64,000 nt of DNA from Bradyrhizobium diazoefficiens. GTDB lineage: Bacteria; Pseudomonadota; Alphaproteobacteria; Rhizobiales; Xanthobacteraceae. A program made the position numbers and the translations under genes. Below are positions 39,958 to 50,632 of this stretch, piece after piece; positions within the stretch are counted from its first letter, which is position 1, and every line of letters starts with the position of its first letter. The notes under the pieces are model-generated. The model did not search any database, was not told where the DNA came from, and saw only the letters and a program-made list of their open reading frames with translations. The stretch spans positions 1-64,000 of the forward strand of contig NZ_JAFCKW010000032.1 in assembly GCF_018129965.1 (NCBI RefSeq). Direction: 5' to 3'.

Positions 39958-41475
39958 TTGTCGCCGTCCCGCGTAACGCATCCGCAAGATGACGGTCGGG
40001 GCGAGCATTTCCGCGTTCGAATCGAGGGGTTCGGCGTCGGCACTTGGGATCTCGATCTCGGCACGATGGAACTGGAATGGTCCGACACCTCCAGGGCCCT
40101 GTTCGGCGTCGAGCCGGGCGAGCCGGAGAGCTACGAGCTGTTCCTGGCGCGCCTCGAGCCCAGCGACCGTGAAGGGGTCGAACGCGCGATCAAACACGTG
40201 GCCGAGCATGGCGGCGGTCTGGACGTGTCCTTCAGGGTCACAGGAACGCTCGGCGGCAAAAAATGGATTCGCGCCCGGGCGGGTCTCATTCGGGACGAGA
40301 CCGGCGCCGTCCGTCACATCAGCGGCATCTTTCTCGACGTCGACGAGGAGAAGCAGGTCGAGGAGGCCCTGCGCACGCGGGAGTCTCACATGCGCTCGAT
40401 TCTGCAGACCATTCCCGACGCCATGATCGTGGTCGACGGCCATGGCGTGATCCAGCTGTTCAGCACGGCCGCCGAGCGTCTGTTCGGCTGGCCGGAGCAG
40501 GAGGCGATCGGCCAGAACGTCAGCATTCTGATGCCGGAGCCCGACCGCGCCCGTCACGACGGCTACATCGCGCGCTACCGCGTCACCCACGATCCGCACA
40601 TCATCGGCATCGGCCGGATCGTGAGCGGCAAACGCCGCGACGGGACCACCTTTCCGATGCATCTGTCGATCGGCGAGATGCAGTCGAGCGGCGAGCCTTA
40701 TTTCACCGGCTTCATCCGCGACCTGACCGAGCATCAGCAGACCCAGGCGCGGCTCCGTGAGTTGCAGTCCGAGCTGGTCCATGTCTCGCGGCTGAGCGCG
40801 ATGGGCGAAATGGCGTCCGCGCTCGCCCACGAGCTCAACCAGCCGCTGGCGGCGATCAGCAACTACATGAAGGGATCGCGGCGGTTGCTGTCGGGCAGCA
40901 CCGATCCGAACATCGCCAAGATCGAGAGCGCCATGGATCGCGCCGCCGAGCAGGCCGTGCGCGCCGGCCAGATCATTCGACGTCTGCGCGATTTCGTTGC
41001 GCGCGGGGAGTCCGAGAAGCGGGTCGAAAGCCTGTCCAAGCTGATCGAGGAAGCCGGCGCACTCGGCCTTGCCGGCGCACGCGAGCAGAACGTGCAGCTC
41101 CGCTTCACCCTCGATCCGGACGCCGATCTCGTGCTGGCCGACCGGGTTCAGATCCAGCAGGTGCTGGTCAATCTCTTCCGCAACGCGCTCGAAGCGATGG
41201 CGCAATCGCAACGGCGCGAGCTCGTGGTCGTCAACACCCGCGTTGCAGACGACATGATCGAGGTCGAGGTGTCGGACACCGGCTCCGGCTTCCAGGACGA
41301 CGTCATGCCGAGCTTGTTTCAAACCTTCTTCACCACAAAGGACACCGGCATGGGCGTGGGACTGTCCATCAGCCGCTCGATCATCGAAGCTCACGGCGGC
41401 CGGATGTGGGCCGAGAGCAACGCATCGGGCGGGGCGACATTCCGCTTCACCCTGCCGGCAGCCGACGAGAGCTGA
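39958..41475 (+). CDS. fixL: Oxygen-sensing haem PAS histidine kinase
   Basis: 505 residues, the same length as B. diazoefficiens FixL. A first PAS domain (about 20-135) is followed by the haem-binding PAS with ligand His200 (DRARHDGY) and oxygen-switch Arg220 (IIGIGRIV). Then come phospho-accepting His291 (SALAHELNQPL) and a C-terminal ATPase domain (NLFRNALEAM, DTGSGF, GMGVGLSI). There are no membrane helices, so it is a soluble kinase. It phosphorylates FixJ when oxygen falls. The only fitting start is TTG. fixJ begins three bases after the stop codon. Confidence 0.96.
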   Translation: MSPSRVTHPQDDGRGEHFRVRIEGFGVGTWDLDLGTMELEWSDTSRALFGVEPGEPESYELFLARLEPSDREGVERAIKHVAEHGGGLDVSFRVTGTLGGKKWIRARAGLIRDETGAVRHISGIFLDVDEEKQVEEALRTRESHMRSILQTIPDAMIVVDGHGVIQLFSTAAERLFGWPEQEAIGQNVSILMPEPDRARHDGYIARYRVTHDPHIIGIGRIVSGKRRDGTTFPMHLSIGEMQSSGEPYFTGFIRDLTEHQQTQARLRELQSELVHVSRLSAMGEMASALAHELNQPLAAISNYMKGSRRLLSGSTDPNIAKIESAMDRAAEQAVRAGQIIRRLRDFVARGESEKRVESLSKLIEEAGALGLAGAREQNVQLRFTLDPDADLVLADRVQIQQVLVNLFRNALEAMAQSQRRELVVVNTRVADDMIEVEVSDTGSGFQDDVMPSLFQTFFTTKDTGMGVGLSISRSIIEAHGGRMWAESNASGGATFRFTLPAADES

Positions 41476-41478
41476 TCC

Positions 41479-42096
41479 ATGACGACCAAGGGACATATCT
41501 ACGTCATCGACGACGACGAGGCGATGCGGGACTCGCTGAACTTCCTGCTGGAGTCCTCCGGCTTCGGCGTCACGCTGTTCGACAATGCCCAGGGCTTCCT
41601 CGACGCCCTGCCCGGCCTCGCCTTCGGCTGCGTCGTCTCCGACGTTCGAATGCCGGGCATCGACGGGATCGAGCTTCTGAAGCGCATGAAGACGCAGCAC
41701 AGCCCGTTTCCGATCCTGATCATGACCGGCCATGGCGACGTACCGCTCGCGGTCGAGGCCATGAAGCTCGGCGCGGTTGATTTCCTCGAAAAGCCGTTCG
41801 AGGACGATCGCCTCGTCAACATGATCGAATCCGCGATCCGCCAGGCCGAGCCGGCCGCCAGAAGCGAATCCGTTGCCCAGGACATCGCGGCCCGGGTCGC
41901 CTCCTTGAGCCCCCGGGAGCGACAGGTGATGGAGGGGCTGATCGCGGGCCTGTCCAACAAGCTGATCGCCCGGGAATACGACATCAGCCCGCGCACCATC
42001 GAGGTCTACCGGGCCAATGTCATGACCAAGATGCAGGCCAACAGCCTCTCGGAGCTGGTCCGGCTGGCGATGCGCGCCGGCATGTTGAAGGATTGA
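41479..42096 (+). CDS. fixJ: Response regulator of the oxygen cascade
   Basis: 205 residues. The receiver domain (1-about 120) has phospho-acceptor Asp55 (VVSDVRMPG) and Lys in FLEKPFEDD. The LuxR-type helix-turn-helix (SPRERQVMEGLIAGLSNK) fills the C-terminus. Once phosphorylated by FixL it activates fixK2. It is coupled to fixL. Confidence 0.96.
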   Translation: MTTKGHIYVIDDDEAMRDSLNFLLESSGFGVTLFDNAQGFLDALPGLAFGCVVSDVRMPGIDGIELLKRMKTQHSPFPILIMTGHGDVPLAVEAMKLGAVDFLEKPFEDDRLVNMIESAIRQAEPAARSESVAQDIAARVASLSPRERQVMEGLIAGLSNKLIAREYDISPRTIEVYRANVMTKMQANSLSELVRLAMRAGMLKD

Positions 42097-42141
42097 GGCA
42101 AGTCAAGATGGCTTCTTGCCGCCCGTGCTATCCAATCAGGC

Positions 42142-42564
42142 ATGATTGAGATCAGCTCAACGCCTGGGCAGCTCCCGATGGCGCCATCCTCGCAATCCAC
42201 GGTCTATGTGGTCGATGACGATGACGCCGTCCTGGGATCCCTGCGCTTCCTGCTGGAAACCGACGGCTTCACCGTGCGGACCTTCAGGAATGCGACCGCG
42301 CTGCTCAATGCGAGTGGGGCGCGCGGCGCGGATTGCTACGTCATCGACTACAAGATGCCCGGCATCAACGGGATCGAACTCGCTGGCCGCCTGCGCCAGT
42401 CCGACGGCGAGACCCCGGTGATCCTGATCACCGGCTATCCGGACGGCAATATCTCGGCTCGCGCGGCGGCCGCAGGCGTAAAAGGCGTGATTTTGAAGCC
42501 ACTTCTGGACGAAAACCTGGTCAAGCTCATCCGCCACGCCATCCAGGACAAGGCCGGAAACTGA
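42142..42564 (+). CDS. Single-domain response regulator between fixJ and fixK2
   Basis: 140 residues, or 128 from the ATG at 42178. It is a lone receiver domain with VYVVDDDDAV acidic residues, phospho-acceptor Asp in YVIDYKMPG and the Lys in VILKPLLDE, and has no output domain. In B. diazoefficiens an equivalent gene lies at the same place (bll2758, as I recall). It may compete with FixJ for FixL phosphate or act as a phosphate sink; this is inference. Confidence 0.88.
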   Translation: MIEISSTPGQLPMAPSSQSTVYVVDDDDAVLGSLRFLLETDGFTVRTFRNATALLNASGARGADCYVIDYKMPGINGIELAGRLRQSDGETPVILITGYPDGNISARAAAAGVKGVILKPLLDENLVKLIRHAIQDKAGN

Positions 42565-42576
42565 CCTACGGGATTC

Positions 42577-42598
42577 TACGTAAGTGAATCCCCTTAAG
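42577..42598 (+). promoter_or_regulatory. Candidate FixJ-binding site in the fixK2 promoter
   Basis: The stretch contains TACGTAAGTGAATCCCCTTA, resembling the GTAAGT...CCCTTAAG pattern of FixJ targets. It lies 70-90 bases before the fixK2 start and directly after the single-domain regulator gene. Confidence 0.55.
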
Positions 42599-42667
42599 AT
42601 ATCTCGCGAAATTTCCGAGGGCCCCGATACCGCGTAGCAAATGGCCATCACAACGGAGATGGCGCAG

Positions 42668-43366
42668 ATGCTGACCCAGACCCTCAACACCCAGCCGATC
42701 AACACCCAGATCGGTGGCAAGATTGCCCCGGTCCACCCCGTCTCTGACCAGTTCGGCGAAATCGCCGGCCATATCGGCCTGGTCGCCACCGAATTCTCCT
42801 ACCGCAAGGAAGAGGAGATCTACGGTGAGGACGAGCCGTCCGAATATGTCTACCAGGTCGTCACCGGTGCAGTGCGCAGCTACAAGCTCCTCTCCGACGG
42901 CCGCCGCCAGATCGGCTCCTTCCACCTTCCCGGCGACGTGTTCGGCCTCGAGTCCGGCTCCACCCACCGCCTTGCCGCAGAAGCCATCATCGACACCACC
43001 GTGCGCCTCGTGAAGCGCGCCAGCCTCGAGAAGGCCGCCGGCACCGACGTGCAGGTCGCCCGCAAGCTCTGGGCCATGACCGCCGGCGAGCTTCGCCACG
43101 CCGAAGACCACATGCTGCTGCTGGGTCGCAAGACCGCGATGGAGCGTGTCGCAACCTTCCTGCTCGAAATGGACCGCCGCCTCGCCGTTGCCGGCATGAT
43201 GGCCCTGCCGATGTGCCGTCGCGATATCGGCGACTATCTCGGCCTCACCCTCGAGACCGTCTCTCGCGCACTGTCCCAGCTCCACGCCCAGGGCATTCTC
43301 GGCTTCTCCGGTGCCCGCCAGATCGTGCTGCGCAACCGGGCGCGCCTGCACAATCTCGACGCCTGA
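42668..43366 (+). CDS. fixK2: CRP/FNR-type regulator FixK2
   Basis: 232 residues. An N-terminal cyclic-nucleotide-binding-like beta-roll (about 40-125) and a long dimer helix precede the C-terminal winged helix (RRDIGDYLGLTLETVSRALSQL). The start at 42668 has GGAG nine bases upstream and places the oxidation-sensitive Cys at residue 183, as in B. diazoefficiens; an ATG at 42641 would shift it. There are no FNR iron-sulfur cysteines. It activates ccoNOQP, fixGHIS and many other genes through TTGA-N6-TCAA boxes. Confidence 0.95.
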   Translation: MLTQTLNTQPINTQIGGKIAPVHPVSDQFGEIAGHIGLVATEFSYRKEEEIYGEDEPSEYVYQVVTGAVRSYKLLSDGRRQIGSFHLPGDVFGLESGSTHRLAAEAIIDTTVRLVKRASLEKAAGTDVQVARKLWAMTAGELRHAEDHMLLLGRKTAMERVATFLLEMDRRLAVAGMMALPMCRRDIGDYLGLTLETVSRALSQLHAQGILGFSGARQIVLRNRARLHNLDA

Positions 43367-43383: not shown

Positions 43384-43418
43384 TGGCCGGCTGACCCGTT
43401 CAGCCGGCCATTTCTTTT
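43384..43418 (+). terminator. Terminator of fixK2
   Basis: A perfect 11-bp stem TGGCCGGCTGA/TCAGCCGGCCA with loop CCCGT is followed by TTTCTTTT. Its right arm contains the stop codon of the convergent MFS gene (43400-43402). Confidence 0.88.
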
Positions 43419-44740
43419 GCGGTGATCGGGCCCATCCGCCGTGTCTCCGGCATCACCAGCAGGATCAGAAGAAGCCCCGTCGCGGCGACGCCGGAAAGCC
43501 CGATGAAGGCGGTGGCGTTGCCGAACCTGTCGCTGACATAGCCGCCCAGCGCCGTGCTGAGCGACGCGCCGATGCCGGTCGCAGTGCCGACGATGCCCTG
43601 CGCGAGATTGAAATGACCGCTGCCGAAGGCGACATCGGCGACGATCAGCGGGATCATCACCGCGAACACCGCCGCCGTGATGCCGTCGAACACCTGCACC
43701 GCCACGAGGAGATAGGGATCGCGCACGGTCGCGAACAGCAGGCCGCGAATCGTCAGCGCGGCGAATCCGATCAACAGCAGCGGCCGCCGGCCCCAGGCCT
43801 GCGCCTTGCGCCCGACCGTCGGCGACACCAGCGCCACGATCGCCTGCGGCACGACGATACAGAAGGCGACGAGCACCGTCGCCCATTGGCTCGACCGCGC
43901 CGTCACGGCGCTCGCCATCAGCGGCATCATCGCCGCGTTCGCCAGTTGCAACAGCAGGACGCTCAGCGCAAAGACGATCAGCGGCTTCTGCCGGACCAGG
44001 TGCCAGATATTGGTGTCGCCGCGATCCCCGGCCTCACGCGGCATCGCGCCGTGACAGCGCGCGATGTCGACCTCTTCCTCCCGGATCCGCGACAGCGCTA
44101 CAAGGGTCGGGATCGCGAGCAGAAAGGTGACGAGAAACACCGAGCGGCTCGACAGGAGGTAGCCGGCCGTCCCCATCACGGCTGCCGCGACGCCATTGCC
44201 GAGCGAGGCGAACCGCGCATTGCGGCCGAGCCGCTCGCCGATCGCGAGCGGCCCGACCAGACCGAGGCTGATGGCCGCAATCGCCGGCCCGAGCACGCAG
44301 CTCGCCGCCGCATGCAGCGTCGCCGCCGCCATTACCACGGGGAAGATCGGCATCGCCGCATAGGCCAGCGCGCAGCCGCCGATGGCGGCGATCGCAAGTC
44401 CCGCCACCAGCCGCTCCGATTTGGCGGCGTCGATGATCGCGCCGCCCGGCATCTGCCCGATCAGGGCGACGATGCCGCCGATCGACAGCACGAGGCCGAT
44501 CTCGACCTGGGTCCATTTCTGCGTCGTGAGGTAGACCGCGATGAAGGGGCCGAATCCGGTCTGCACGTCCGCGAGGAAGAAGATGAACCAGTCGAGACCG
44601 CGCTGGCTCTGGCGCGATGGCGCCGGAATGCCCGCCGGGGATGACGCGGAAAAATTGTCCTGCTCAACGCGGCTGTCGCGATCTGCATGTTTCGGCTGTG
44701 TCGACACCAGCACCGGTGGCCATCCCTCCCCGCGCCTCAC
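43400..44740 (-). CDS. MFS transporter
   Basis: 446 residues. A hydrophilic leader of about 45 residues is followed by about twelve membrane helices in two halves. The first half begins WFIFFLADVQTGFGPFIAVY and the central loop (about 210-240) is charged. The family exports or imports small solutes; the substrate is unknown. GTG at 44738-44740 overlaps the PRC-barrel gene stop codon (GTGA), so translation is coupled. It is the last gene of the ABC-debranching-PRC-MFS row. Confidence 0.82.
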   Translation of the reverse strand: MRRGEGWPPVLVSTQPKHADRDSRVEQDNFSASSPAGIPAPSRQSQRGLDWFIFFLADVQTGFGPFIAVYLTTQKWTQVEIGLVLSIGGIVALIGQMPGGAIIDAAKSERLVAGLAIAAIGGCALAYAAMPIFPVVMAAATLHAAASCVLGPAIAAISLGLVGPLAIGERLGRNARFASLGNGVAAAVMGTAGYLLSSRSVFLVTFLLAIPTLVALSRIREEEVDIARCHGAMPREAGDRGDTNIWHLVRQKPLIVFALSVLLLQLANAAMMPLMASAVTARSSQWATVLVAFCIVVPQAIVALVSPTVGRKAQAWGRRPLLLIGFAALTIRGLLFATVRDPYLLVAVQVFDGITAAVFAVMIPLIVADVAFGSGHFNLAQGIVGTATGIGASLSTALGGYVSDRFGNATAFIGLSGVAATGLLLILLVMPETRRMGPITAKEMAG

Positions 44741-45243
44741 GGAGCGGCTTGCAGCGGTTGCAGGTTGCCGGAGGCGCCCAGCACCACCATCGGCGTGTCT
44801 TCCTTGTATTCGGGCGCGGCGGCGACCTGCGCCTTGGTCAATTCCAGCGTGATGCTGTCCTTCTTGTTGACGATCTTGCCGAACCGCAATGCGTTCCAGT
44901 CCACCACGATCTTACGGCTGCCGACGCCGAGGAAGCCGCCGAAATCGATCACGGCAGCACGAACGCGTCCGCTTCGATCGACGATGACGTCGACGATCCG
45001 GCCCATGTCCTCGTTCGCGGCACTCAGCACGTCGCGGCCGAGCATGCCATGCGCGTCACTCGCGCCGATGATGGTCACCGACGGCGGCGGCGTGGCATCC
45101 TTTGGAGTGACGGTGACCGACGAGGCCGGCGGCGCATTCGGTTCCGTCGCGGGCGCGGGCGGTGTCTCCGCTGCACGCGATAGGGAGATCGACAGCGCCG
45201 CGACGATCGCCACGCTTATGACTAGTGTTCCGATCGGACGCAT
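44737..45243 (-). CDS. Exported PRC-barrel domain protein
   Basis: 168 residues. A signal peptide (GTLVISVAIVAALSISLSRA) and a Pro-rich linker precede a PRC-barrel core (LGRDVLSAANEDMGRIVDVI, then VRAAVIDFGGFLGVG and RKIVVDW). PRC barrels are small beta domains that bind RNA, photosynthetic reaction centres or other partners. Exported versions are common in Bradyrhizobium with no fixed role. It is coupled to the MFS gene. Confidence 0.8.
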   Translation of the reverse strand: MRPIGTLVISVAIVAALSISLSRAAETPPAPATEPNAPPASSVTVTPKDATPPPSVTIIGASDAHGMLGRDVLSAANEDMGRIVDVIVDRSGRVRAAVIDFGGFLGVGSRKIVVDWNALRFGKIVNKKDSITLELTKAQVAAAPEYKEDTPMVVLGASGNLQPLQAAP

Positions 45244-45264: not shown

Positions 45265-47469
45265 TTAGCGCGCCAGTACGATCGACACCTGGATCTGGCC
45301 GCACGTGCGCAGGACCTCGAGCGCGACGTCGTCGCCGTGGCGGCTGACGCGCAGATCCACGCTGGAGTCACCAAGGCGCAGATCGCGCAGAATGACCTCG
45401 TTCAGGAACACCGGCAGATGCGGATTGCGCAGCCTGATCTCACCGCGCCCGACGTCGAACTCGATACCAAGCGCCGCCTCCAGCAGCGTGAACGGCGTCG
45501 CGCTCGCCCAGGCCTGCGGCGCGCAGGCGACCGGATACAGCGTCGGTCCGCGCCGCTTCTCTCGCCGGAAACCGCAGAACAGTTCCGGCAGTCGCCGCAG
45601 ATCCATATAGGTCGCAGCCTCGAACAGCCCCTTGAACACATGCGCCACCGAACGCTTGAGCCCGTAACGCGCGAGCCCGAGCGCAATCAGCGCATTGTCG
45701 TGCGGCCAGATCGACCCGTCATGATAGGACATCGGGTTGTAGCGCACCTCACCTCGCGCGACGGTGCGAATGCCCCAGCCGGAGAAGAAGTGCGGGCCCA
45801 TCAGGTCGGCGGCGACAAGCCGTGCGCGATCCTCGCGGATCATGCCGCTGAACAGCACCTGACCCGCATTCGAGGTGCGAACCTTGCACGGCCGCTTTTT
45901 GCCATCGAGTGCGAGCGCGTAGGTGCCGAGTTCCTCGCACCAGAACGCATGCTCGAAGCGCTCGGCCAGGGTCTTTGCTTCTGCCTCGAGCCTGTGCGCA
46001 AGATCGGATTTGCCGAGCCGAAGCGCACAGCGCGCGGCAAGCAGTTTTGCCGCAAAGACGTAACCTTGCACCTCCGCCAGCGCGAGATTGCCTTCGGCAA
46101 GCTGGCCATCGGCATGGAAGATCGCGTCGTAGGAATCCTTCCAGCCCTGGTTCGCCAGACCCTTTTCGGTTGCGCGCTGATATTCGACAAAGCCGTCCTG
46201 ATCCGGATCGCCCGGGCCGTCGATCCAGGCCAGCCCCGCCTCGATCGCCGGCCACAGCTCGGTCAGCGTTTGGACGTCGCCGGTGCGCTCGAAATAGCGG
46301 CCCGCCAGCATCACGAACAAGGCGGTCGAGTCCACGCTGCCGTAATATTGAGCAAATGGCACCTCGCGCAACGCGGCCATTTCGCCGCCGCGCATCTCGT
46401 GCAGGATCTTTCCCGGCGCCGCATCGGCCAGCGGATCGACCGCCTTGGCCTGGAAATGCGCGAGCCGCCGCAACACGCCCTTGGCGATACGCGGATCGAC
46501 CCACAGCATCTGCAGCGCGGTGATCAGGCCGTCGCGGCCGAACGTGGTCGAATACCAGGGAATGCCGGCATAGGGATAGCGGCCCTGCGGCGTCTCGGTC
46601 ATCAACATGTTGAGGTCGGCCATGGCCTGGCACAGCACCTCGTTGAAGATGTTGTTGGAGGTCTCGATGCTGGCCGCCCCCATCGTCGACTGCCGCATCT
46701 CGCGGCGATGCGCCAGCAGGTCCCTGAAAAAGCGCGCCGGCTTCTCGCCGATCGGCCGGTTGCAGGAGACCGCCACGAACAGCGATCTCGACTCGTGCGG
46801 ATCGAGTTCGAGCTGCCAGGTCGCGGCATTCACCGAGAGGCGTGTCGGTCGCGGATCGAAATGCAGGCCGGTAGTCCGCTCGGCATCGTCGAGGCCGCGA
46901 TAGTCGAACAACACGTCGGCCGGCCCGAGCAGTTTGCTCGCGCCGGTCCCGCGGCGCGTGCGCCGCTCGCCGCGAACCTCGAACAGGTCGGCAAAGTCGT
47001 TGCCGAACAGCAGCGTCAGCTCGAAGCTGGCGCGCCGGTCGCCGTGGTTCTGCACCCCGATGCGCTGATAGGCGGTGCCGCGCCACAGGAAGATCGTGCG
47101 GACGATGTGCAACAGGTCCTTCTGCAGCACCAGGCTGCCGTCCCGGTAGATGTCGGGGTTGGTCAGATCGACGGTCAGCGCCGAATTGTCATCGCGCAGG
47201 TTCGAGCCGAGCAGCAGCGGCTGGAGATCGTCCAGCACGAGCTCAAGCTGCGCGAGATAGCGCGTATCGTGGTTGAACAGGCCGTCCGGACCGCCCGCGG
47301 ACGCACCGATATCGCCGTGGCTGTCGAGCACGATGAATGTGTCGTCATGCTTGAGCGAGCGCCGCGGCCGCGCCGAGGGTCCTGTCATCGGGATGTAGAA
47401 AGGCTGTTCGGCGACCTGTTCAGAGGTTCGAGTCACGGAGACGAATTGGGTTACGGCTTCGGCGGCCAT
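45265..47469 (-). CDS. Amylo-alpha-1,6-glucosidase/glycogen-debranching-like protein
   Basis: 734 residues. The N-terminal GDE-type beta domain (HDDTFIVLDSHGDIGA, then GLFNHDTRYLAQLEL) is followed by an (alpha/alpha) toroid with YAGIPWYSTTFGRDGLITALQ-type helices and WPHDNALIALGLARYG near the end. The family cleaves alpha-1,6 or related glucosidic bonds, but many bacterial members are untested. No signal peptide is visible, so it is probably cytoplasmic. AGGAGAG precedes the start. It lies 55 bases downstream of the ABC exporter gene. Confidence 0.83.
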   Translation of the reverse strand: MAAEAVTQFVSVTRTSEQVAEQPFYIPMTGPSARPRRSLKHDDTFIVLDSHGDIGASAGGPDGLFNHDTRYLAQLELVLDDLQPLLLGSNLRDDNSALTVDLTNPDIYRDGSLVLQKDLLHIVRTIFLWRGTAYQRIGVQNHGDRRASFELTLLFGNDFADLFEVRGERRTRRGTGASKLLGPADVLFDYRGLDDAERTTGLHFDPRPTRLSVNAATWQLELDPHESRSLFVAVSCNRPIGEKPARFFRDLLAHRREMRQSTMGAASIETSNNIFNEVLCQAMADLNMLMTETPQGRYPYAGIPWYSTTFGRDGLITALQMLWVDPRIAKGVLRRLAHFQAKAVDPLADAAPGKILHEMRGGEMAALREVPFAQYYGSVDSTALFVMLAGRYFERTGDVQTLTELWPAIEAGLAWIDGPGDPDQDGFVEYQRATEKGLANQGWKDSYDAIFHADGQLAEGNLALAEVQGYVFAAKLLAARCALRLGKSDLAHRLEAEAKTLAERFEHAFWCEELGTYALALDGKKRPCKVRTSNAGQVLFSGMIREDRARLVAADLMGPHFFSGWGIRTVARGEVRYNPMSYHDGSIWPHDNALIALGLARYGLKRSVAHVFKGLFEAATYMDLRRLPELFCGFRREKRRGPTLYPVACAPQAWASATPFTLLEAALGIEFDVGRGEIRLRNPHLPVFLNEVILRDLRLGDSSVDLRVSRHGDDVALEVLRTCGQIQVSIVLAR

Positions 47470-47524: not shown

Positions 47525-49288
47525 TTACGCGGCCGCTTGCGCGAGCCGGCTCATTTCCTGCGTGACCAGCTCGCGATAGGGCCCGTGGTCCTGCATCAGA
47601 CGCTCGGGCGGTCCGTCCTCGATGATCTTGCCACCCTTCAGCACGACCACCCGGTCGAAATTCCGCAGCGTTGCCAGGCGATGCGCGATTGCGATCACGG
47701 TGCGGCCGCGCATCAGGCGCGACAACGCCTCGCGGATCGCCTCCTCGGACTCGCCGTCGAGCGCGGCCGTCGCTTCATCCAGCAGCAGGATCGGCGCATC
47801 CTTGACGAAGGCGCGCGCGATCGCGATGCGCTGGCGCTGGCCGCCGGACATCTTGACGCCGCGGTCGCCGACCATGGTGTCGAGGCCTTCCGGCAGGCTG
47901 TCGATGAAATCGCAGCGCGCCGCGATCGCCGCGCGCAGCACCTCGTCGTCGGTCGCATTGGGGCGGCCGTAGCGGATATTCTCGCGGATCGAACGGTGGA
48001 ATAGCGAGATATCCTGCGGAACCACCGAGATCGCCTCGCGCAGGCTCTGCTGGGTCACCTTGGAGATATCCTGACCATCGATGGTGAGGTTGCCCTCGTC
48101 GACATCGTAGAACCGCTGTAGCAGCGTGAACAATGTGGATTTGCCGCCGCCGGACTGGCCGACCAGGCCAACGCGCTGACCGGGCTGCAGCCGCAGGCTG
48201 AAGCGTTCGAAGATCTTTGCGCCGCCGGGATAGCCGAAGGTGACGTTGTTGAACGCAATCGCAGCGCCGCTCTTGACCAGCGGCTCGGCTTCGGGGTGAT
48301 CGCGCAGTTCGTGCGGGACGAGCAGCGTCGCGATCGCCTCCGTGAGCCGCGCGACGTGCTGGGTCACGTCGACCAGCGCCACGGCGAGGTCGCGCGTGGC
48401 GTTGAGGATGGACAGGCCGAGCGTGCAAACCAGCACGACGTCACCGGTGGTCGCCTCGCCGTCCTGCCAGAGCACGATCGCCCAAGCCATCAGCGCCACG
48501 GTCAGGACAACCGTTACGCCGGCGTGCAGCAGCCGCAGCTTCTCCAGGTAGCGCAGGCTGCGCCCGCGCGCGGTGACTTCCCGGTTGACGGTGGCATCAA
48601 ACCTTTCATGCTCGTGGCCGATGCCGCAGAAGGCACGGACCAGCGGCATGTTGCTGATGACGTCGATCATCTCGCCGTCGACATTGGCCGCCTTGTCGGC
48701 AAAGTCGTCATGCAGAGGCCTGCCGGCCGCAGCGAGACGGAACATGGCGGCCACCATGCCGCCTGCGATCACGATCAGGCCGAGCGCCATGTAAGGGCTC
48801 ACGGTTCCAATCAGCGCGATGGCGGCAACAGTGGCGATGCACGGAGGCAGCACATTCCACACCAGCATGTTCTCGACCGTGAACACGGCGTTGGACGTGG
48901 CGGTGATGCGGCTCGTCAGCATGCCCGGCATCCGGTCCGAGAAATAGCTCGGTGCGTGGCCGGTGAGATGACGAAAGATGTCCCGGCGCAAATCGCCGGT
49001 GACGCGAACGAAGGTGAAGCTCGCCGTCCAGCTCGCGATCCGCCACAGAAAGTTGTCCGCGGCGATCAGCGACATCAGGAAAATGAACGCGAGCCACACG
49101 CTGCCGCCATGCGCAGGGCCGCCGGACAGACTGTCAACGAGCGACTTGACGCCGTATTGCGTGCCCACCGAACAGGCAACCGCCGCGACGACAGCGGTCA
49201 GGATCACGAGGTGGGAGGCCAGACGAAGCCGCAGATAGCGCAAGACGAAGGCAAATGGCCTGCGCGCATATCCAGAAAGATGATCCAT
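47525..49288 (-). CDS. ABC exporter, fused permease and ATPase
   Basis: 587 residues from the ATG at 49288. Six membrane helices (about 20-300) are fused to an ABC ATPase with Walker A GQSGGGKST, signature KMSGGQRQR, Walker B ILLLDEATAALD and switch His in AIAHRLATL. Such homodimers export lipids, glycans or drugs. Neighbouring debranching-like and glycosyltransferase genes make a carbohydrate or glycolipid possible, but this is inference. An ATG at 49357 would add 23 residues of unlikely composition. Confidence 0.83.
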   Translation of the reverse strand: MDHLSGYARRPFAFVLRYLRLRLASHLVILTAVVAAVACSVGTQYGVKSLVDSLSGGPAHGGSVWLAFIFLMSLIAADNFLWRIASWTASFTFVRVTGDLRRDIFRHLTGHAPSYFSDRMPGMLTSRITATSNAVFTVENMLVWNVLPPCIATVAAIALIGTVSPYMALGLIVIAGGMVAAMFRLAAAGRPLHDDFADKAANVDGEMIDVISNMPLVRAFCGIGHEHERFDATVNREVTARGRSLRYLEKLRLLHAGVTVVLTVALMAWAIVLWQDGEATTGDVVLVCTLGLSILNATRDLAVALVDVTQHVARLTEAIATLLVPHELRDHPEAEPLVKSGAAIAFNNVTFGYPGGAKIFERFSLRLQPGQRVGLVGQSGGGKSTLFTLLQRFYDVDEGNLTIDGQDISKVTQQSLREAISVVPQDISLFHRSIRENIRYGRPNATDDEVLRAAIAARCDFIDSLPEGLDTMVGDRGVKMSGGQRQRIAIARAFVKDAPILLLDEATAALDGESEEAIREALSRLMRGRTVIAIAHRLATLRNFDRVVVLKGGKIIEDGPPERLMQDHGPYRELVTQEMSRLAQAAA

Positions 49289-49466
49289 GTGACTGCGACC
49301 CCGTCGTGATGTTTCTGATTTTCTGAGTGATCGACTGAACGGCGACCGCTTTGCCAAGGTTCCCGGGCAACGCGATCACGACATGCGGATGCGGACGATC
49401 TGAGAAGAGGTGATGGCATCATCGCGACCACGCTGCGGTGTATCGAAGAAGTAACACTCACGGAGA

Positions 49467-49493
49467 GGAACTTCGCACATGCGAGAACGTTCC
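49467..49493. promoter_or_regulatory. Sigma-EcfG promoter, near-palindromic, between ABC and GT4 genes
   Basis: On the plus strand it reads GGAAC, 16 bases, CGTT, an exact match to the general-stress consensus, 71 bases before the GT4 ATG. The minus strand also reads GGAAC, 16 bases, AGTT, with one -10 mismatch, 180 bases before the ABC exporter. It could fire both ways. The dependence on sigma-EcfG is inferred from the consensus. Confidence 0.65.
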
Positions 49494-49561
49494 CCTGTTG
49501 GCATGCCGGTGCCGAGATGAGCGGGATTTTCCACGTTCATGATCGCAGAGGAGATGGCGAG

Positions 49562-50632
49562 ATGCGCATCGCGCAGGTAGCTCCGTTGACGGAGGCTGTT
49601 CCACCCAAGCTTTATGGCGGCACCGAACGCGTGGTGCACTGGCTGACCGAAGAATTGGTTGCCCTCGGACACGATGTGACGCTGTTTGCCAGCGGCGATT
49701 CGCAGACTTCGGCGAAGCTCGACGCGACCTGGCCACGCGCCCTTCGCCTCGACGGTTCCGTCCGCGATGCCAACGCGCTGCATATGGTCATGCTGGAGCG
49801 CGTGCGGCAGAAATGCGACGACGAGGAGTTCGACGTTCTCCACTTCCATCTGGATTACTATCCGTGGTCGCTGTTTCACCGCCAGCCGACACCATTCTTG
49901 ACCACACTGCACGGCCGGCTCGATCTTCCCGAGCATCAGCCGGTGTTCAATACGTTCTCGAAGATGCCGGTAGTCTCGATCTCGAATGCGCAGCGGCGTC
50001 CGGTGCCGCAGGCGAACTGGGTGAGCACGATCCATCACGGTTTGCCCGAGAAGTTGCTGACGCCGCGGCCGGCGAAACAGGAATACCTTGCCGTGCTCGG
50101 CCGCATCGCTCCCGAGAAGGGCGTCGATCGCGCCATCAAGATCGCGATGCATTGCGGTATTCCGCTGAAGATTGCCGCCAAGGTCGATCGCGCCGACCAG
50201 GACTATTATGACGAACTGATCCGCCCGATGATCGAGAACAATCCGCTGGTGGAGTTCATCGGCGAGATCGGCGACCACGACAAGCCCGACTTCCTCAGTG
50301 GCGCGCTCGGACTGCTGCTGCCGATCGACTGGCCGGAGCCCTTTGGCCTGGTGATGATCGAGGCCATGGCCTGCGGTACGCCGGTCGTTGCCTTTAATCG
50401 CGGCTCTGTGCCGGAAATCATCGACGAAGGCCTGACCGGCTTCATCGTCGAGGACGTCATCAGCGCCGCCGGCGTCGTCAATCGCCTCGCGCAGCTCGAC
50501 CGCGCCGCGGTTCGCAAGCAGTTCGAGGCGCGCTTCACTGCGCGCCGCATGGCGCTCGACTATCTCGCCGCCTATCGCAGCCTGGCCGAGGCGCAGGCAC
50601 CGCGGATCAAGCTGGTGAGCAGCGCGGAGTAA
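49562..50632 (+). CDS. GT4-family glycosyltransferase
   Basis: 356 residues with a GT-B fold. The N-terminal half starts MRIAQVAPLTEAVPPKLYGG, and the C-terminal half has GRIAPEKGVDRAIKIA and the donor-site block PEPFGLVMIEAMACGTPVVA with the E-x7-E acidic pair. It moves a sugar from a nucleotide donor to an unknown acceptor. AGGAG lies 10 bases before the ATG at 49562; an ATG at 49517 would add 15 residues. It is divergent from the ABC-debranching-PRC-MFS row and has an EcfG-type promoter. Confidence 0.87.
   Translation: MRIAQVAPLTEAVPPKLYGGTERVVHWLTEELVALGHDVTLFASGDSQTSAKLDATWPRALRLDGSVRDANALHMVMLERVRQKCDDEEFDVLHFHLDYYPWSLFHRQPTPFLTTLHGRLDLPEHQPVFNTFSKMPVVSISNAQRRPVPQANWVSTIHHGLPEKLLTPRPAKQEYLAVLGRIAPEKGVDRAIKIAMHCGIPLKIAAKVDRADQDYYDELIRPMIENNPLVEFIGEIGDHDKPDFLSGALGLLLPIDWPEPFGLVMIEAMACGTPVVAFNRGSVPEIIDEGLTGFIVEDVISAAGVVNRLAQLDRAAVRKQFEARFTARRMALDYLAAYRSLAEAQAPRIKLVSSAE

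Follow-up and report, generated by a model that had tools for sequence, protein, structure and literature searches.

Between a GT4 glycosyltransferase gene and a divergent set of genes in Bradyrhizobium diazoefficiens lies a 27-bp dyad, GGAAC-N17-GTTCC, which is probably (at roughly 0.6) a single sigma-EcfG promoter that polymerase would bind either way, driving both GT4 and an operon for an ABC exporter, a debranching-like glycoside hydrolase (GH), a PRC-barrel protein and an MFS transporter. The dyad reads GGAACTTCGCACATGCGAGAACGTTCC at 49467-49493 of the window, a term used here for the whole stretch of 64,000 nucleotides that was analysed (Table 1). The proposed mechanism starts from the AAC core of the -35 element and the GTT core of the -10 element, which are mutual reverse complements and leave any AAC-N17-GTT promoter half symmetric. 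A GG before AAC would then supply the -35 on one strand, while a CC after GTT would supply that of the other strand at the right spacing. The rightward read, with CGTT, would serve GT4, and the leftward read, with the weaker AGTT or GGTT, would serve the ABC-GH-PRC-MFS genes. The two modes would be mutually exclusive at any instant, resulting in a stress-tied, biased co-expression of both arms.

Table 1. Positions of the promoter elements and flanking genes in the window.
Feature	Position	Strand	Basis or remark
27-bp dyad GGAAC-N17-GTTCC, candidate EcfG-type promoter legible on both strands	49467-49493		sequence and conservation
Plus -35 GGAAC; its AAC doubles as the GTT of the minus -10	49467-49471	+	sequence and conservation
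Plus -10 CGTT, GT4 ATG 70 nt downstream	49488-49491	+	sequence and conservation
Putative minus -35 GGAAC, CC = 49492-49493	49489-49493	-	conservation
Putative minus -10 AGTT, 1 base from CGTT	49469-49472	-	sequence
Inner palindrome TCGCA-NN-TGCGA within the spacer	49473-49484		kept in most, not all, relatives
Second EcfG-type site GGAAC-N17-CGTT, exact, 49 nt upstream of the likely ABC start	49338-49363	-	motif scan and relatives
GT4 glycosyltransferase, glucosylsucrose-synthase-like; next gene on opposite strand	49562-50632	+	start by homology; ORF-list ATG 49517
ABC exporter, MsbA/ChvA-like	47525-49288	-	below model cut-offs; start by homology; ORF-list TTG 49357
Glycogen-debranching-like hydrolase (GDE_N_bis, MGH1-like, GDE_C)	45265-47469	-	domain matches
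PRC-barrel protein, signal-peptide-like N terminus (by eye)	44737-45243	-	domain match
MFS transporter, end of tight minus-strand run	43400-44740	-	domain match

An initial annotation had described an exact GGAAC-N16-CGTT on the plus strand and a match one base off on the minus strand, and both descriptions hold: the plus site is exact at 49467-49491, and the minus strand reads GGAAC-N16-AGTT. The site has the GGAAC -35, the CGTT -10 and the N16-17 spacing of EcfG promoters, and its elements are pseudo-symmetric, as in bidirectional promoters. The genes named on either side were likewise recovered as GT4, ABC exporter, GDE_N_bis/GDE_C hydrolase, PRC-barrel and MFS. The exporter did not reach the curated model cut-offs for membership in either exporter group (MsbA, 358 of 602 bits; chvA, 264 of 585 bits), and the hydrolase has one solved relative (7vma). 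Beyond the MFS gene and convergent with the operon, window positions 39958-43366 encode a PAS sensor kinase, two response regulators and a Crp-type regulator, which we take to be fixLJ-fixK; relatives of that fixK and fixJ flank 20 of 138 searched loci, including L035, L038 and L041, many of the loci being too short to reveal them. Directly after the promoter (49500-49513), the inverted repeat GGCATGCCGGTGCC, recurrent in many relatives, is perhaps a 5' hairpin at the predicted transcript start.

Conservation of the plus-strand site was assessed in 178 GT4 loci, 138 of them collected first and 40 then taken from lower in the match list; this sample, partly composed of the best 30 matches of each search, is not a random one, and G016 was left out as it is a fragment only. 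GGAAC-N16-[C/T]GTT occurs at the same place in 116/178 loci, beginning 71-195 nt upstream of the start codon, and in 116 of the 119 loci with a GT4 at least 76% identical; these are not species counts, since several loci represent one organism (L075/L223, L071/L220, L070/L255 and L064/L257), and shared ancestry inflates them, as it does all conservation counts given here. The taxa concerned are Bradyrhizobium, Tardiphaga, Rhodopseudomonas, a Pseudolabrys MAG and further family members. Three loci at or above 76% identity lack the site: L212, which reads GGACC-N16-CGTTCC and so has GGACC as its plus -35, and L222 and L226 (76-77% identity), in which no such site occurs. Below 76% identity the exact site is absent from that place, weaker or displaced matches being found in L082/L232 (at -28) and in L081, L236, L239, L241 and L250 (with 8/9). 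It is also absent from L088, a Bradyrhizobium with a GT4 68% identical. Five more same-genus orthologs, fetched as a check, all have the plus site, the CC and a divergent GH (5/5), two of these repeating contigs already sampled (L255 = L070, L257 = L064).

EcfG is described as exclusive to Alphaproteobacteria (PMC3892343), and the plus site was found in none of the 17 betaproteobacterial GT4 orthologs examined. These orthologs, 65-67% identical, belong to Burkholderia, Paraburkholderia, Caballeronia and Trinickia (L091-L094, L096-L104, L106, L108-L110) and have no close ABC or GH relatives alongside; they possibly reflect horizontal spread, the nearest named GT4 relatives being those of Bradyrhizobium.

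The genome of the window encodes PhyR, NepR and a cognate ECF sigma factor. A PhyR-NepR-sigma locus is present, with scores of 58 bits for Pfam NepR and 368 bits for the NCBIfam PhyR family, the NCBIfam NepR model remaining below its cut-off (31 of 100 bits). The adjacent sigma factor matches NF009192 at 392 bits, and its name EcfG rests on locus context. The -10 consensus of EcfG has been given as C/GGTT (PMC4814048), and EcfG -10 boxes are reported to tolerate change, S. granuli having as many as 14 boxes (PMC7083833). With sigma-EcfG (ECF15) promoters of Alphaproteobacteria, the GT4 site shares GGAAC, N16, CGTT and the presence of a PhyR-NepR-sigma locus in the same genome. Together with the conserved position upstream of the same gene, a mark of EcfG promoters, this locus strongly supports the EcfG-type promoter that had been claimed for GT4, and the site is very probably a sigma-EcfG promoter of that gene.

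The reading of the minus strand depends on two bases. Because AAC and GTT of the EcfG elements already mirror each other, only the CC that follows GTT is independently informative about a minus -35. Conservation of the palindrome in relatives, which the initial annotation had proposed as a check, is seen in this GGAAC-completing CC, present in 113/115 readable loci (the exceptions being L052 with GC and L126 with CA, while L027 has NN and is unreadable). Of the unique 27-mers, 51 are readable and 49 have it. Clustering at 60% identity gave 22 clusters, whose representatives were chosen greedily in alphabetical order, and 20 of the 21 that are readable have CC; among these representatives most flanking columns drop to about 0.3-0.6, with column 35 holding 0.82. 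Eight loci have a spacer that matches that of the window at 9 or fewer of its 16 bases, and seven of them retain CC (L075 and L223 being one organism). The minus read GGAAC-N16-NGTT is present in 109 of the 112 loci that combine the plus site with a divergent ABC gene, and L217 has an exact CGTT on both strands. The GT4 site differs in this respect from other EcfG promoters, as CC follows none of 50 control motifs of the form GGAAC-N16/17-[C/G]GTT at nepR/phyR; the controls come from 28 of 50 family nepR/phyR loci, the own genome left out, count as EcfG-type on sequence and place alone, and include none from the genus of the window. A spacer conserved among orthologs is a further difference.

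The putative leftward -10 is weaker. Its first base is set by base 6 of the dyad, which among the 116 loci is T in 86, C in 26, A in 3 and G in 1, giving AGTT or GGTT, seldom TGTT and once CGTT. Since this base is nearly always a pyrimidine, a consensus CGTT is hardly ever available to leftward transcription; a pyrimidine is also found there in 45 of the 50 control motifs, and this ordinary feature may prevent a better leftward -10. With regard to selection on both orientations, the CC of the minus -35 is kept almost throughout, yet the minus -10 is sub-consensus. The claimed bidirectional use is supported in so far as the minus GGAAC is conserved and tied to the GH-containing divergent operon, whereas its -10 falls short; we read the site as a candidate promoter that is strong to the right and weaker to the left.

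The tie to the operon was established from gene content in the 104 of 178 loci with at least 4.8 kb upstream, L212 and L241 being excluded for their short flanks. All 55 site-bearing loci in this set have a debranching-like GH gene in divergent orientation, 51 of them with ABC, GH and PRC and four, two of which represent one organism, with GH directly divergent and ABC gone. None of the 49 site-less loci has GH there, 31 having ABC alone and 18 neither. The five check loci agree: GH is divergent in each, and in four of them ABC accompanies it. There are exceptions to the association, since L212 and L241 combine ABC with GH but lack the exact dyad, the former with the altered plus -35 given above and the latter with offset sites instead. 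In a deeper clade, five of the seven loci L077-L083 (L077, L078, L081, L082 and L083) have a minus-strand GGAAC-N16-CGTC facing ABC; the same gaps have a nearby AATAAGTT-type element, with MFS-PRC(-GH) beyond GT4.

A rather unlikely alternative is that the EcfG promoter of GT4 works one way. CC would then be kept for reasons of rightward transcription (discriminator or initial melting), and other promoters would drive the ABC operon, in the subgroup of the window the second minus-strand site at 49338-49363, which the initial annotation had overlooked. The plus -35 and -10 are kept throughout and the minus -10 is sub-consensus, both of which fit this alternative, as does the dedicated minus site. 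A like site (GGAAC-N16/17-NGTT, 40-100 nt before ABC) is present in 46 of the 112 loci with the plus site and a divergent ABC gene, where it could do the leftward work alone, and in 44 of the 46 loci ABC is 91% or more identical to that of the window; its -10 is exact in the window and mostly TGTT in its subgroup (TGTT in 42 loci, CGTT in 3, AGTT in 1). In favor of the two-way reading, a sigma-70-like match was not found in the gap of the window, with a scan that covers alphaproteobacterial promoters poorly. As a sole explanation, however, the dedicated minus site was rejected, being absent from 66/112 loci, yet CC is lost in two loci only. The lack of CC after every control motif also speaks against a rightward reason, as the sigma factor seems not to need it. 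If the dyad is read in both directions, the dedicated site would add leftward transcription in the subgroup of the window.

The inner palindrome of the spacer raises the prospect, an improbable one, that the dyad and TCGCA-NN-TGCGA together form the operator of a dimeric regulator over the GT4 promoter. Column conservation was determined on 101 unique 67-mers from 105 loci, columns 1-5 and 22-25 being invariant by row choice. The TCGCA-NN-TGCG arms are 86-99% fixed, which is unusual for a sigma-factor spacer: the spacer is conserved beyond the need of the sigma factor, and a regulator site superimposed on the promoter is possible. Exact copies of the inner palindrome number 15 in the genome, whereas the reversed pattern has 8. 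Nevertheless, it is lost in L074, L075/L223, L133, L211 and L217 while GGAAC and CC stay, for which reason it was rejected as the primary element, and its centre of symmetry lies 1.5 bp away from the outer one. In the same alignment, column 35 is G in 93 of 100 readable rows and could be the rightward transcript start. Far less probable still is a chance match or an RNA/DNA stem-loop, with GT4 and the ABC operon outside EcfG control. Motif counts are at chance level, in keeping with such an origin: GGAAC-N15-17-CGTT was found twice in the window against 1.15 expected per shuffled window, two or more matches being reached in 33 of 100 shuffles, so that occurrence alone is uninformative. Genome-wide, the EcfG-type motif is not enriched over the reversed-pattern control (68 forward and 73 reverse, the control being higher at 116/137), and neither is GGAAC-N17-GTTCC relative to other spacings (6 of 50 listed places over nine spacings, 52 having been counted). 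However, both window matches fall in one 273-nt gap, from 49288 (likely ABC start) to 49562 (GT4 start), one per strand and each aimed at the nearer gene, where about 0.005 matches per 273 nt are expected by arithmetic from the shuffle rate. This paired placement and the fixed position of the plus site across GT4 loci are not due to chance. A stem-loop has a precedent in the one other site of this form in the genome that is exact on both strands, G000:C1:484910-484936 (L251:1011-1037, L260), a perfect palindrome (GGAACGGCCGCCATGCGCGGCCGTTCC) with an AAA-ATPase gene 50 nt downstream. It was rejected as a second two-way case, since it is a GC-rich stem-loop whose arms covary in several rows; of the 19 orthologs from the same genus, counting the own one, 8 have GGAAC-N17-GTTCC. 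A dyad as perfect as this can therefore arise without EcfG. At the GT4 site, by comparison, position and spacing are fixed and the outer letters do not covary, remaining identical while spacer and flanks change, a pattern which fits recognition by a sigma factor better than a stem-loop.

Other places in the genome were also considered. The gap between phyR and nepR in the same genome (L160:3753-3779, G000:C23:378752-378778) holds GGAACTGCGAGGGGAGGCCCGGGTTCC, a dyad of the same form; it was rejected as a second two-way case because the dyad occurs in 0/50 other loci, and no GGAAC-N16/17-NGTT was found on either strand in the 10 other same-genus phyR/nepR loci (L191-L200). The phyR and nepR-ecfG promoters resemble the GT4 site in serving two divergent EcfG-dependent units (PMC4814048) and differ from it in having two separate offset motifs, in 23 of the 50 loci. 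This arrangement, in which both motifs are EcfG-type and divergent, was seen in 23 of the 30 family loci L161-L190, several of which have GGAACTTTTT towards phyR. Among further dyads in the genome, those at C2 and C7 were set aside, lying within long open frames with high third-position GC, and another is found at C53. Finally, 24 own-genome motif places (20 stretches, chosen by eye from the listed places) were dropped as extra EcfG promoters or controls, given that 18 of them lie inside predicted ORFs; CC follows CGTT in 0/24.

The product of the system can be approached through GT4, whose closest solved structure is TeGSS (PDB 7fg9, E 3.4e-89), a UDP-glucose:sucrose alpha-1,2-glucosyltransferase of a soluble stress solute (PMC9909042). 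In a comparison of 177 of the 178 loci, Y18 and the equivalents of R179, K184 and Glu256 of the UDP site are shared in 177/177 rows. In contrast, the sucrose-contacting Trp10 of TeGSS is Thr in 172/177 rows and Trp in none, which suggests that the acceptor may not be sucrose. Given its nearness to glucosylsucrose synthase, GT4 may make a stress solute and not a glycan for export. The initial annotation had proposed a carbohydrate that is made and exported or remodelled; the idea that it is made and exported is about half supported, GT4 being nearest to an enzyme of a soluble solute and the exporter scoring below its model cut-offs. GT4 would probably glucosylate a small acceptor to yield a protective oligosaccharide, which the GH would probably trim or turn over, with the exporter and MFS handling that oligosaccharide or a related glycan.

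Control of carbohydrate genes by stress has precedents. In B. diazoefficiens, trehalose synthesis is under the general stress response (PMC8092242), and the positively EcfG-regulated, motif-bearing genes tabulated for Sphingomonas melonis include a glycosyltransferase together with the glycosidase that follows it in numbering and, as a separate entry, a PRC-barrel gene (PMC6599016). The two-way promoter is the less expected part. By synteny and USDA110 numbering, GT4 is presumably bll2752. That gene is listed as a probable glycosyl transferase of EPS formation and is up 2.33-fold with indole-3-acetic acid, a treatment for which the authors report general stress gene induction (PMC3788728).

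Bidirectional sigma-70 promoters (Warman/Grainger) likewise consist of pseudo-symmetric DNA bound either way with mutual exclusion, and in these the -10 itself is symmetric, with starts usually 18 bp apart (PMC12825309; PMC10268837). The GT4 site, unlike these, has a -35 and a -10 that mirror each other and would use an ECF sigma factor, an arrangement from which starts about 40 bp apart are predicted. A bidirectional or palindromic EcfG promoter was not described in those parts of the literature that the search covered; the B. japonicum EcfG regulon (Gourion 2009) could list these genes. In its broadest form, the proposal is of a Janus ECF promoter, in which CC after GTT would make a one-way general-stress promoter usable in both directions. 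Selection would have kept this form at the GT4/GH-operon locus across Bradyrhizobium and its neighbours, so that the genes for making a stress oligosaccharide and those for remodelling it are co-expressed; we hold this wider statement to be evenly balanced.

Symmetry-based bidirectional promoters are already known for sigma-70, and here the symmetry would arise from the mirroring of -35 and -10. Such mirroring could extend to every ECF sigma factor whose -35 is AAC and whose -10 is of the GTT type, and it would offer a sharp and cheap prediction, namely that two bases decide between one-way and two-way activity. It would also tie a solute-type glucosyltransferase to the general stress response, beside a fixLJ-fixK-like locus, in a nitrogen-fixing genus.
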